The position numbers were made by a program, and so were the translations under genes. This document shows, piece after piece, positions 1-29,459 of a stretch of DNA of 29,459 bases. Each line of letters begins with the position of its first letter. The first letter of the stretch is position 1. The notes beneath the pieces are model-generated. The model worked only from the letters and a program-made list of their open reading frames with translations. It made no database searches and was not told the DNA's origin. Source of the DNA: a virus; IMG/VR virus record IMGVR_UViG_3300046413_000007, positions 1 to 29,459 of that record, one strand, 5' to 3'.

Positions 1-63
1 TGTATATCCTAACCAAAAGCATACATCCCATTTTTTTGTTTGTTGTCTTAATGTTAATTCCAT
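1..63 (-). CDS. Start of a small protein cut by the left window edge
   Basis: An ATG at 63-61 opens a frame that stays open for 21 codons to base 1. The peptide starts MELTLRQQ and continues KKWDVCFWLGYT. The start lies 46 bases after the stop of the preceding gene, with an A-rich stretch before it. The frame continues exactly into the open frame at the right edge (29459-29427) if the sequence is circular; the joined product would be 31 residues ending in HKLKQ. The joined peptide has one aromatic, moderately hydrophobic stretch. No function can be given. The frame continuity is seen directly; circularity is inferred. Confidence 0.55.
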   Translation of the reverse strand, partial: MELTLRQQTKKWDVCFWLGYT

Positions 64-109
64 CTTTATAATGCCTATATTAGTGAGAAGGTCTTTACTC
101 TGTTATTAT

Positions 110-433
110 CTATTGTTTTAGTTCTTTGATTCTACTGTCTATATCTTCAACATCAATTTTTCTAAACTCATCAAATCCATCACCTTCATAGCAAACATGT
201 GCTTGTAATCTAAGTAACTCCAACTCCTCAATAACTTTTTGGTTAGCGTATTGTTCTATCAGTTCCATACTGTCATCTAATGTTTTCTTCCTGTGAGTAT
301 GTAGCCAATATTCCCCCTCGTGTAAAATATCAATAGCAACTTTATATACCTCGCTTTCTAATACCTTTTTTGGTATTTCTATTTGTTCATCTAATGATTC
401 ATCTATTTTTATTATTGAATAATACTCTTTCAT
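110..433 (-). CDS. Hypothetical acidic early protein, 107 aa
   Basis: The protein is unrecognised, about 107 residues, acidic and predicted to be mostly helical, with no signal peptide or membrane segment. The start lies three bases after the stop of the small gene at 437-544, so it belongs to the same transcript as the methyltransferase and replication genes. It is probably a cytosolic early protein. Its reality is supported by length, tight spacing and lack of a competing frame. Confidence 0.75.
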   Translation of the reverse strand: MKEYYSIIKIDESLDEQIEIPKKVLESEVYKVAIDILHEGEYWLHTHRKKTLDDSMELIEQYANQKVIEELELLRLQAHVCYEGDGFDEFRKIDVEDIDSRIKELKQ

Positions 434-436
434 ATC

Positions 437-544
437 TTATTGTTTTAATTCTCTATACCAAAAGGAAGCTATGAGTTTATTGTCATTGTCTCTTAAGTGA
501 GGTTTTTCTAATAGGATCTTTCTTATAGTATCTTTTGTTTTCAT
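437..544 (-). CDS. Small early protein, 35 aa
   Basis: ATG at 544-542 opens one base after the stop of the methyltransferase gene (TAA at 548-546), and the TAA at 439-437 leaves three bases before the next start. It therefore fills the gap exactly. The peptide begins MKTKDTIRKILLEKP, then has RDNDNKLIASFWYRELK. The pattern of a helical IRKIL segment, an RDNDNKLI turn and a W-rich end is one seen in many short phage proteins of unknown role. Function unknown; possibly a small DNA- or protein-binding helix-turn-helix-like peptide. Confidence 0.65.
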   Translation of the reverse strand: MKTKDTIRKILLEKPHLRDNDNKLIASFWYRELKQ

Positions 545-545
545 A

Positions 546-1193
546 TTAAAATAATTCAGTTTGTTTTATATCTTCCTTTTTTATAATACCTAGCATTGTT
601 TCAAAGATTGTTTTACCAGCTTCATAATCTACTAAGTTTCTTAAAACATCTCTATAACCACCAACACTAGCACTAACTTTTATATCGTGAAATACTTCAA
701 GTTTCTTATGTTCTCCTCTCATTGTGCATAAAATCCCATCAAGTTTTCTTTCTTTTAAATCATTTGGCAAATTAAAATTAGTCCAATATAAGTGCCTGCC
801 TCTTTTTTTTGCTGGTATTAAAGGTTGGTAGTATGGAGTTACGTTTTCTACGCAATACTTGCCATTAAAATAATTATCTAAAAAAATAATTTCTTCATAA
901 AGTTTTAAATCAGGATAAATTGCTTTAAATGTATCTCTTGATTTTTGTGTAATTCTAATTTTACTATGACTTGGACAAGGTGGAGAACTCCAAATAAAAT
1001 CAAATTCTTTATAGTGTTCTAGCAAATACTGATGTGCATCTGCTATTACAACTTTGTCATTAGGAAACCTATCTTGGTAAAGTCTAGCTAATTCAATATC
1101 TAATTCAACTGCTGTTACTTCTATATCTTCCTTAACTTCATTCCACTTATATCTATTACCACCTAGACAAGCATATAAATTTAATATTTTCAT
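546..1193 (-). CDS. DNA cytosine-5 methyltransferase, short phage type
   Basis: It is predicted to transfer a methyl group from S-adenosylmethionine to C5 of cytosine in phage DNA. Visible motifs are the SAM-binding motif I LNLYACLGGNR (residues 4-14), the catalytic loop SSPPCPSHS (69-77, nucleophile Cys73), ENV motif VI (116-118) and RHLYW, motif VIII-like (133-137). At 215 residues it is far shorter than typical Dcm-like enzymes (300-400); there is little room for a target-recognition domain and no clear motif X. No restriction enzyme lies nearby, so it is probably a solitary enzyme protecting the phage from host restriction. Its start overlaps the previous stop by four bases (ATGA), which implies coupled translation. 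Confidence 0.9.
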   Translation of the reverse strand: MKILNLYACLGGNRYKWNEVKEDIEVTAVELDIELARLYQDRFPNDKVVIADAHQYLLEHYKEFDFIWSSPPCPSHSKIRITQKSRDTFKAIYPDLKLYEEIIFLDNYFNGKYCVENVTPYYQPLIPAKKRGRHLYWTNFNLPNDLKERKLDGILCTMRGEHKKLEVFHDIKVSASVGGYRDVLRNLVDYEAGKTIFETMLGIIKKEDIKQTELF

Positions 1194-5887: not shown

Positions 5888-6373
5888 TTATTTATTTTTG
5901 ATTATTAAATTAATATTTTCTCCTCCCAAATTTATTATTTCTTTCATAAGTAAATCCATAGCCAAAGTTGAATTATGAACAATATCTTGTTGGCTACCCT
6001 GTCCTACTAGGATGCAACCCCTTGTGTCTTTAGCTGTATTACCCCTGTGAAATAATATGTGTGATCTGTCTTTTACATCTTTAACTAATAAATGTAAATA
6101 ATCTCTTGTTGCTGATTCTCTTGCAACCCTTAATCTTACTTTGTATTCTCCTACTGGGATGCAAGATATGCTTCTTTGATTATCTCTATAAGGCAGCTCT
6201 AATGTATCGCAGAATCTTTCTCCATTTACAAATAGTTCTCCTATTGTACTTTCATCACTAAAAGTATCTCTAAGAATTAATAAGTTTATTTTGGAGGGTT
6301 TAGAGATAGTAGGCTTTATAGATTTTACATCCTTTAACTTCTTTAATAAATTCTTTACGCATTTTAACATCAC
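5888..6373 (-). CDS. DUF5675 protein, candidate lysis enzyme
   Basis: Residues 30-125 fit DUF5675: LILRDTFSDESTIGELFVNG, FCDTLELPYRDN, CIPVGEYKV, then HILFHRGNTAKDTRGCILVG. The last motif, a histidine (109) followed ten residues later by a Gly-Cys pair (119-120), resembles the His...GC active site of L,D-transpeptidase (YkuD) folds, which act on peptidoglycan. No other endolysin is visible in the window and a holin-like gene follows directly, so this is the best candidate for the cell-wall enzyme. That is inference; family function is not established. The N-terminal 27 residues are cationic (KNLLKKLKDVKSIKP) and may target the membrane. No signal peptide. Confidence 0.75.
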   Translation of the reverse strand: MMLKCVKNLLKKLKDVKSIKPTISKPSKINLLILRDTFSDESTIGELFVNGERFCDTLELPYRDNQRSISCIPVGEYKVRLRVARESATRDYLHLLVKDVKDRSHILFHRGNTAKDTRGCILVGQGSQQDIVHNSTLAMDLLMKEIINLGGENINLIIKNK

Positions 6374-6431
6374 TTTCTTTTGCTTTGTTGTATATAGGGT
6401 TGTTGCTGTTTAGTTTGCGTTTCTTGGGCAT
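6300..6431 (-). CDS. Small basic protein, 43 aa, overlapping the DUF5675 start
   Basis: The ATG at 6431-6429 overlaps the TAA of the 56-residue membrane protein (TAATG). The product begins MPKKRKLNSNNPIYNKAKES and is rich in Lys and Arg. It fills the 57 bases before the DUF5675 ATG and then overlaps that gene by 74 bases in another frame, so its C-terminal half may be a by-product. Alternatively, translation of this frame may serve to couple ribosomes to the DUF5675 start. Function unknown. Confidence 0.4.
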   Translation of the reverse strand: MPKKRKLNSNNPIYNKAKESDVKMRKEFIKEVKGCKIYKAYYL

Positions 6432-24473: not shown

Positions 24474-24516
24474 TTTTAGTTAATAATTAGGGTACGCTTT
24501 ATGCTGCCCTTTTTTT
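24474..24516 (+). ncRNA. Possible short plus-strand RNA, about 40 nt
   Basis: This is the predicted transcript from the promoter at 24437-24468 to the terminator T-tract at 24511-24516. It would be a short single-stranded 5' part and a stem-loop. It carries no open frame. It overlaps the end of the terminase large-subunit gene only at its last bases. Start position is estimated from the -7 box; nothing proves it is made. Confidence 0.35.
24489..24516 (+). terminator. Rho-independent terminator, plus orientation
   Basis: AGGG-TA-CGC pairs with GCTGCCCT around a TTTAT loop (24489-24510; AGGG with CCCT and GC with GC, small mismatch between), followed by TTTTTT. The T-tract is in plus orientation. 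On the minus strand the same hairpin follows the terminase stop but without a T-tract, so it may terminate terminase mRNA weakly. Confidence 0.7.
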
Positions 24517-25717
24517 ATTGTACATAATACCTTCCTGCGTTTGGATTGTCTAAATGGTAGATTACGTTATACCTTATTCCGTCTATTGCGTGGTTGTATG
24601 AATCGTGATATAATTTAGAACCCTTGTCGCTGTATATATAATTATTTAGCTCTTTAGCTATGTTAGTTGATTCAGGTGTTATTACTAAGTGATAGTCTTG
24701 CATACGTGTTATACCACTTTCAATAGTTCCTTTCTTTACAGGTTTAATGTTTACTCCTAAATGCTTTAAGTCTGCTATTAGTCTTGGCTCTGCTGAGTCT
24801 GCTATGATAAGCTTCTGACCTACCTTGTCTAGTATTATCTGTGCTAGTTCATTTGACTTTAAACCATTCTTGTATATATGCTCTTTAAGATATATCCTCT
24901 GCCTTTTTTTGTCTATTGCTACTTCAGTCAATGAATCAGGATCTACTGAGAATCCAAAGTCCATACCACAAGATGTCTGTAAGTTATCAGGATTAAATTC
25001 TCCTATACTCCAATTATCAAATACTACACCATCTGCTCTGTCTAACCAGCCACCTAATATTTTATGTTGGTACTTCTTAAAGTTATTGTGCTTTATAGTC
25101 TTAATACGCTCTAGGAAACTCTCTGAGAGGTTTTCTCTGTTGTCTTCGTATGTACTATGGATATAGCATACATTGTCTTTAAAACCATTATATCCAGCTT
25201 CAACTCCTTTGTCTTCAAAAAACCTTTTATATATCCAATGCTCTTTTGTTACAGGGTTAAGTATAAGTATGATTCTATTCTGTATATTCTTTTCTCTAAT
25301 ACTTAAGTCTATTGTATCAAATATATCTTCATCAATAAGTTCTTCTGCTTCATCAAGTACCCAAGTGCTTACACCTTGTAATGACTTTAGACTTGCAGTC
25401 TGATTACCAGCTGATGTCTTGATACCTCTAAATAGTATGTCTGATTTATTCTTTAAATTTACTACTTCTGCTTTATTTACACTAAAGGTATTCTCATATC
25501 CTAATAGTATTATCTTTTCTAAGAACTCAGGAATGATTGACAAGTGAGCTGATACCATTGTAAAACGTGTAAACAATACTCTAATGCCTTCTGTCATTGT
25601 TAGTAGTGTAAGAAAGACTGTAACGGCAAATGACTTACCTGATCCTCTACCACCTGTGATAATGTAGTATCTAGCTTTAGATGAAAATAGTTCTTCGTAT
25701 TTCTTATTCAGTATCAA
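24515..25717 (-). CDS. terL: Terminase large subunit (PBSX-like)
   Basis: The motor and nuclease that packages phage DNA. Walker A is GGRGSGKS (residues 22-29) and Walker B WVLDEAEE (119-126), with a coupling motif near ILNPVTKEHW (152-161). The C-terminal nuclease shows the acidic residues in GMDFGFSVDP (Asp253), IIADSAEP (Asp307) and NHAIDGIRY (Asp379). At 400 residues it is of usual length for the Terminase_3/PBSX group, which is commonly linked to cos or pac packaging. It overlaps the small-subunit gene by 14 bases. Confidence 0.95.
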   Translation of the reverse strand: MILNKKYEELFSSKARYYIITGGRGSGKSFAVTVFLTLLTMTEGIRVLFTRFTMVSAHLSIIPEFLEKIILLGYENTFSVNKAEVVNLKNKSDILFRGIKTSAGNQTASLKSLQGVSTWVLDEAEELIDEDIFDTIDLSIREKNIQNRIILILNPVTKEHWIYKRFFEDKGVEAGYNGFKDNVCYIHSTYEDNRENLSESFLERIKTIKHNNFKKYQHKILGGWLDRADGVVFDNWSIGEFNPDNLQTSCGMDFGFSVDPDSLTEVAIDKKRQRIYLKEHIYKNGLKSNELAQIILDKVGQKLIIADSAEPRLIADLKHLGVNIKPVKKGTIESGITRMQDYHLVITPESTNIAKELNNYIYSDKGSKLYHDSYNHAIDGIRYNVIYHLDNPNAGRYYVQ

Positions 25718-28751: not shown

Positions 28752-29156
28752 TTATTCAATACCCTTTTCTTCTTTTAAGTTTTTAACAGTTGATTTGTAA
28801 TAAGTTATCTTTTCTTCATAGTCAGCTCTAGTAAATTTAGTTATTTGTCTTGCTTTAAACTCTAACTCTTGTGCAGTACCTTCTCCATACTTTGAGTCTA
28901 ATGCTATTGAGAATTTATATTGTTCTCCTTGTTTAAACATATTACAACCTACACATTGTGGCTGACAGTTTTGTTCATCAAATCTTGTAGCTAAATGACT
29001 TCTACTTTGAAAATGTCCGTTCTGCATACCTTGCTTATAATTTTTAACACATCCACAAGTAATACATTGTACCATACCATTTTTACTATCTCTAAGTCTA
29101 ATGTAAAGACTAAACCACTTATCAAGTTCTTTCTTAAGTTTGCTAATTGTTTTCAT
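28752..29156 (-). CDS. NinG-like recombination nuclease
   Basis: 134 residues. KWFSLYIRLRDSKNGMVQCI, TCGC, NGHFQSRSHLATRFDEQNCQ and PQCVGCNMFKQGEQ form the NinG (Rap) pattern. The zinc-binding residues are C31, C34, C68 and C71, and H48 and N63 are in the HNH-like core. NinG of lambda processes branched DNA and assists RecA-independent or plasmid-type recombination. The enzyme is of usual length for small NinG forms. It overlaps the preceding gene by 14 bases and lies in one operon with a NinB-like gene. Confidence 0.82.
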   Translation of the reverse strand: MKTISKLKKELDKWFSLYIRLRDSKNGMVQCITCGCVKNYKQGMQNGHFQSRSHLATRFDEQNCQPQCVGCNMFKQGEQYKFSIALDSKYGEGTAQELEFKARQITKFTRADYEEKITYYKSTVKNLKEEKGIE

Positions 29157-29424
29157 ACCCTAAGTTTTTTCTCCATTCTTCTTGTAGTTTACCTTTACGT
29201 ATTTTATATGCTTCTCCTCTTAAACCTGGTTCTTCTTCTTGAAGCTTTGCTCTCATTCTTCTTATACTCTCAGCATTAGTTAATTCATTATCTGCATACT
29301 TATGTAAAAAATTTAATGCAGTTATTTCTTCAGCATCTATGTTCTTATTGTTTAATTCTCTTTTTATTTTTATTTTTTTTATCGCTTCTCTAATTTCTTT
29401 TCTTGTTCTTTTTGGATTACTCAT
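29143..29424 (-). CDS. Highly charged hypothetical protein, 93 aa
   Basis: Starts SNPKRTRKEIREAIKKIKIK and ends KGKLQEEWRKNLGYENN; alternating basic and acidic stretches with a predicted coiled coil. No family recognised. It may bind DNA. It follows the end of the edge-spanning small gene by two bases (stop 29429-29427), fitting a single continuous operon across the window join. Confidence 0.68.
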   Translation of the reverse strand: MSNPKRTRKEIREAIKKIKIKRELNNKNIDAEEITALNFLHKYADNELTNAESIRRMRAKLQEEEPGLRGEAYKIRKGKLQEEWRKNLGYENN

Positions 29425-29426
29425 AT

Positions 29427-29459
29427 CTATTGTTTTAATTTATGTATACCATCTACAAT
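29427..29459 (-). CDS. End of a small protein cut by the right window edge
   Basis: The right edge holds ten codons, IVDGIHKLKQ, and a TAG stop (29429-29427), in frame from the last base of the window. They continue exactly the frame that runs off the left edge (1..63). See the entry at position 1. Confidence 0.5.
   Translation of the reverse strand: MVDGIHKLKQ

Follow-up and report, generated by a model that had tools for sequence, protein, structure and literature searches.

At the two ends of the window, that is the whole stretch of 29,459 bp analysed here, lie the pieces of a 96-codon gene, together with further small accessory genes of the same region. These features and the two genes that served as anchors are the following.

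1..63, minus strand: 5' part of the 96-codon gene, first 21 codons (MELTLRQQTKKWDVCFWLGYT), cut by the contig end; the full-length 96-aa gene is present in L082/G023, L002/G024, L098/G025, L099/G026, L100/G027 and L102/G028
108..124, minus strand: gene-end motif RAAYTAAAACAATARAT, at the start of the block common to G024, G027 and G028
110..433, minus strand: 107-aa accessory gene (p107) within the insert, ending in -KELKQ*; matches at 71-100% aa in G023 and G025-G028
437..544, minus strand: N-terminal half (35 aa, MKTKDTIRK...FWYRELKQ*) of a split accessory gene, which relatives lacking the insert have unbroken
444..454, minus strand: left member of the pair of 11-bp direct repeats (AGAGAATTAAA) that flank the 747-bp insert
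24515..25717, minus strand: terminase large subunit (PF04466, E 7e-34), the anchor for relatives and cut points
28752..29156, minus strand: gene of a NinG/Rap-like Holliday-junction endonuclease (PF05766, E 8e-19; PHROG 5034), the synteny anchor
29143..29424, minus strand: 93-aa ORF, a stub of the insert fused to the C-terminal half of the split gene (RELNNKNIDAEE...); the intact MKTK...RELNSKNIDAEE... gene is present in L085, L086, L087, L089 and L090
29351..29361, minus strand: right copy of the direct repeat AGAGAATTAAA, a sequence that occurs only once in close relatives lacking the insert
29425..29441, minus strand: gene-end motif AAATTAAAACAATAGAT, where the 96-aa gene gives way to the following ATG
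29427..29459, minus strand: 3' part of the 96-codon gene, last 10 codons and stop (IVDGIHKLKQ*); 65 codons (195 bp) are absent between this part and base 1

The sequence-only reading had joined the window ends and taken the result as a 31-residue protein and as a sign of a complete circular genome. The frame itself is there: read on the minus strand from 63 to 1 and on from 29459 to 29427, it runs from ATG to TAG without a break over 31 residues (MELTLRQQTKKWDVCFWLGYT followed by IVDGIHKLKQ*), and two bases separate its TAG from the next ATG. However, when unrelated points of this genome are joined at random, 65% of the joins are crossed by a sense-strand ORF that begins with ATG and has 31 aa or more, and the same holds for 85% of the joins made by randomly deleting 1-400 bp. 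Because of these rates the open frame carries almost no weight as evidence, and it is a tempting error to take an open frame over contig ends as proof of closure when two thirds of random joins would pass. Two relatives likewise join in frame and yet miss residues. The ends of G001 meet inside a gene similar to that of the major capsid protein (MCP), of which 245 of 301 aa are present, and those of G006 inside a 193-aa gene with 154 of 193 present; in both cases the missing residues are found in the window's protein. The window ends carry no exact terminal repeat, direct or inverted, so that the direct terminal repeat (DTR) of at least 20 bp by which closed circular contigs are recognised is lacking.

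Relatives were collected by scanning IMG/VR with the terminase, the 93-aa ORF, the NinG-like gene, and then the 96-codon gene itself. These scans recovered the whole gene in six contigs, with 96 codons in each. In all of them residues 1-21 and the last 10 are identical to the window's two pieces, and 65 further residues (KDINFTIDW...KRVNS) fill the window's join point; the exact matches to the window ends are separated by 195 bp in six out of six. The assumption that base 29459 abuts base 1 is therefore contradicted by every relative spanning the point, all of which continue into other coding sequence past the ends. The frame is kept over a naive join because 195 is 3 x 65. A search for the joined peptide in related phages had been proposed; a pattern scan of viral_contigs for its DNA gave no match, and the spanning contigs have the full gene instead. 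This comparison indicates that the window ends belong to the same gene, 195 bp apart, adjacent on the circular map but not touching, and that the 31-aa gene is an artefact of the assembly gap. The 195 bp are seen in the relatives only but presumably exist in this very genome. The 96-codon gene is an accessory gene absent from most relatives. Its protein has no Pfam match and no match among sequenced phages or in bacterial genome contigs, and a weak match to an exonuclease PHROG (E 0.005) is not relied on.

It could be argued that the genome is a closed circle, its terminal repeat trimmed, with a true deletion allele of 31 codons. The open joined frame and the loss of a whole number of codons would agree with this, but the opening of the contig would have had to coincide exactly with the deletion, which is about one of 29,459 positions, and no repeat of more than 1 bp flanks the would-be deletion. 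In addition, no 31-codon allele was found: the pattern over the joined peptide had no match in viral_contigs, and the full gene is present in each of the six contigs that span the point. We therefore regard such an allele as very unlikely.

For gene order, the records of 24 near-complete relatives of 26.4-30.4 kb were fetched. Each has counterparts to 28 to 39 of the 46 window genes, and all of them show the window's gene order in rotated form, cut at various places, as would be seen for a circular gene map. Exact terminal repeats are present in three of the 24 (77, 123, and 123 bp) and imperfect terminal overlaps in at least 12 others; G025 and G026, which are unrelated to the window phage, have exact terminal repeats of 127 bp. 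The authors of CheckV explain such fixed repeat lengths by the assembler's k-mer, which remains where a circular template was randomly opened (PMC8116208). The window also contains the expected phage modules, namely terminase, portal, capsid-like and tape-measure-like structural genes, replication initiation, an SSB-like gene, and NinG, assigned by family match or by position. The rotated gene order and the terminal repeats and overlaps of the relatives thus argue that the genome maps as a circle of roughly 29.65 kb, of which the window covers about 99.3%. Of the earlier proposal of a full circular genome of about 29.46 kb, near-completeness and the circular map hold, whereas closure and the exact size do not, given the missing 195 bp. 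The map is circular as judged from contigs alone, in which permuted, terminally redundant DNA and unit-length cohesive-end DNA look alike. The window resembles the (near-)complete DTR phage genomes assembled from metagenomes (CheckV/IMG-VR, PMC8116208) in its circular map, arbitrary cut, and expected size and modules, but differs from them by having no terminal repeat and by the 195 bp missing between its ends.

The cut points of the relatives range from 4.6 to 28.2 kb in window coordinates. A single fixed genome end was considered and rejected because they are scattered (Rayleigh R 0.16, p about 0.5). About 4 kb by the terminase genes (window-equivalent 24.2-28.2 kb) holds half of the 24 cut points; the gene content may be variable there, or packaging may start in this region. 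That one locus holds both contig ends might suggest that they mark fixed physical genome ends, either cos ends or terminal repeats. However, relatives read straight through the locus, which lies inside an accessory gene that most of them lack, and the 24 are cut elsewhere, half of them by the terminase genes, so that fixed ends at this place are very improbable.

The closest relative, IMGVR_UViG_3300046749_000039 (L082/G023), has a terminase identical to the window's (100% aa), the same insert, and exact flanks, 544 bp up to window base 1 and 148 bp starting from base 29459. It differs by spanning the gap with the full 96-codon gene, by being a 16.4-kb fragment, and by several structural genes of only 44-82% identity. 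This relative also disposes of another alternative, a fragment with unrelated ends whose frame arose by chance, which the 65% of random joins with such an ORF would allow but which has almost no probability left, since in six relatives a single gene matches both ends at 100%, and G023 spans both sides, with its flanking gene order continuing over the point.

The surroundings of the gap are an insertion into another accessory gene. The close relatives L085, L086, L087, L089, and L090 have an intact gene, MKTK...FWYRELNSKNIDAEE..., at the insert's place. This gene is split at AGAGAATTAAA in G023 and likewise in the portion of the region that the window contains. The insert comprises 747 bp (positions 681 and 1428) and carries two genes, of 107 aa and 96 aa, and a short stub. 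AGAGAATTAAA is found at both of its edges and as a single copy at the empty sites of L085, L086, and L087, the pattern expected from mosaic exchange, with the same short sequence at both segment edges and an empty site. With regard to a transposon or an integron-type cassette, which would encode a transposase or recombinase for the motif, none of the proteins of the cassette has a Pfam match. Phage mosaicism at short conserved boundaries has been described (PMC3029335, including Island3 gene 68), and the present case is similar in that the insert lies at a short sequence repeated at both edges and that neighbouring genes have C-termini in common. Unlike in those phages, the -LKQ* then ATATG motif of the window recurs at several gene junctions and also in phages of different families.

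A block of 435 bp of the insert (G023 1015-1449), covering the 96-aa gene and the stub, is shared with other phages. G027 and G028 match it at 99.5% nucleotide identity, and G024, G025, and G026 contain it as well. The portal proteins of G025 and G026 are only 24-25% identical to the window's at the aa level, and there is no terminase match. The window reaches 123 bp into this block from the left and 117 bp from the right, and the middle is missing. The exact matches on the left side are 123 or 127 bp long across the relatives, apart from the 544 bp of G023, and the 127 bp matched in G025 and G026 equal those contigs' own terminal repeats. An assembler k of 127 failed on the right side, where the exact matches vary by relative between 101 and 148 bp. 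Viral short-read assemblies are known to fragment at repeats and genomic islands (PMC6487183), and the overlap lengths at the shared block fit the behaviour of de Bruijn graph assemblers at a segment shared between genomes. The shared block thus presumably caused the contig break.

Taken as a whole, we are highly confident that the window is a nearly complete contig whose ends lie 195 bp apart in the 96-codon gene, broken at the shared block of the insert. It would be a single contig from a short-read metagenome of a circularly mapping phage genome, and the 96-codon gene would have arrived with the 747-bp insert by horizontal acquisition. With the 435-bp part of this insert nearly identical in other, unrelated phages, the graph assembler would have been unable to traverse the block, and at either end the contig would break off after about 120 bp of it. 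A simple end-to-end join would then be in frame solely due to 195 being a multiple of three. The assembly gap is an ordinary one, and its probable cause is local and neat. In short-read assemblies, a phage genome can accordingly be opened by a gene cassette that was exchanged only recently, and it is then the gene of this cassette that is interrupted and wrongly read.

The gene-end motif RAAYTAAAACAATARAT (-LKQ*, in most cases with the ATATG of the following gene after it) turns up repeatedly where accessory genes adjoin, and the gene pairs that flank it vary. The window has a further copy at 435-451, and motifs of this type are found elsewhere in L011 (2213), L015 (4770), L067 (2011), L104 (1669), L174 (5558), and L175 (7366), and also in G025-G028. 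For example, L067, L174, and L175 share the reading frame upstream of the motif, but it is followed by MKEEERTYK in the first and by MNKNIVVIWP in the other two. The motif core occurs in 28 copies on the coding strand versus 1 on the other strand in 844 kb, although many of these copies are related and the coding strand is A-rich. It is possible that the motif is a recombination joint. The order of the cassette units also varies, being p107, 96-aa gene, stub in the window and G023, 96-aa gene, stub, p107-like gene in G027 and G028, and stub, p107-like gene, 96-aa gene, stub in G025 and G026. These orders are circular permutations of the same units, and the first two are what a circular intermediate would leave. 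One might speculate that marine phages of different families swap small accessory genes as single-gene cassettes via the 17-bp motif (-LKQ* then ATATG), and that a dedicated process, or one assisted by a recombinase, perhaps achieves this through a circular intermediate, but we consider this unlikely. A 43-aa ORF, MPKKRKLNSNNPIYNK... (window 6300-6431), is similar to RKLNSKNPKYKKG, a stretch that G025 has fused to its stub, and is possibly another module joined at the same motif.

The terminase large subunit, which also matches PF17288, relates the window to the Nonlabens phages P12024S and P12024L (genus Inhavirus), whose terminase is the best match among sequenced isolates. This comparison concerns the terminase only, at 64% aa identity, and the genomes differ by 6 kb in length (35.7 kb versus about 29.65 kb here); a primase and a helicase are annotated in the Nonlabens phages. 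The host of P12024S is a marine flavobacterium. The window appears to derive from an uncultivated phage whose nearest cultured relative, as judged by the terminase sequence, infects a marine flavobacterium. Scans of the window for tRNAs and Rfam families found nothing. A gene similar to C5-cytosine methyltransferases (window 546-1193) is located upstream of the NinG gene in some relatives and after 118-aa or 194-aa genes in others, and is a mobile accessory gene.
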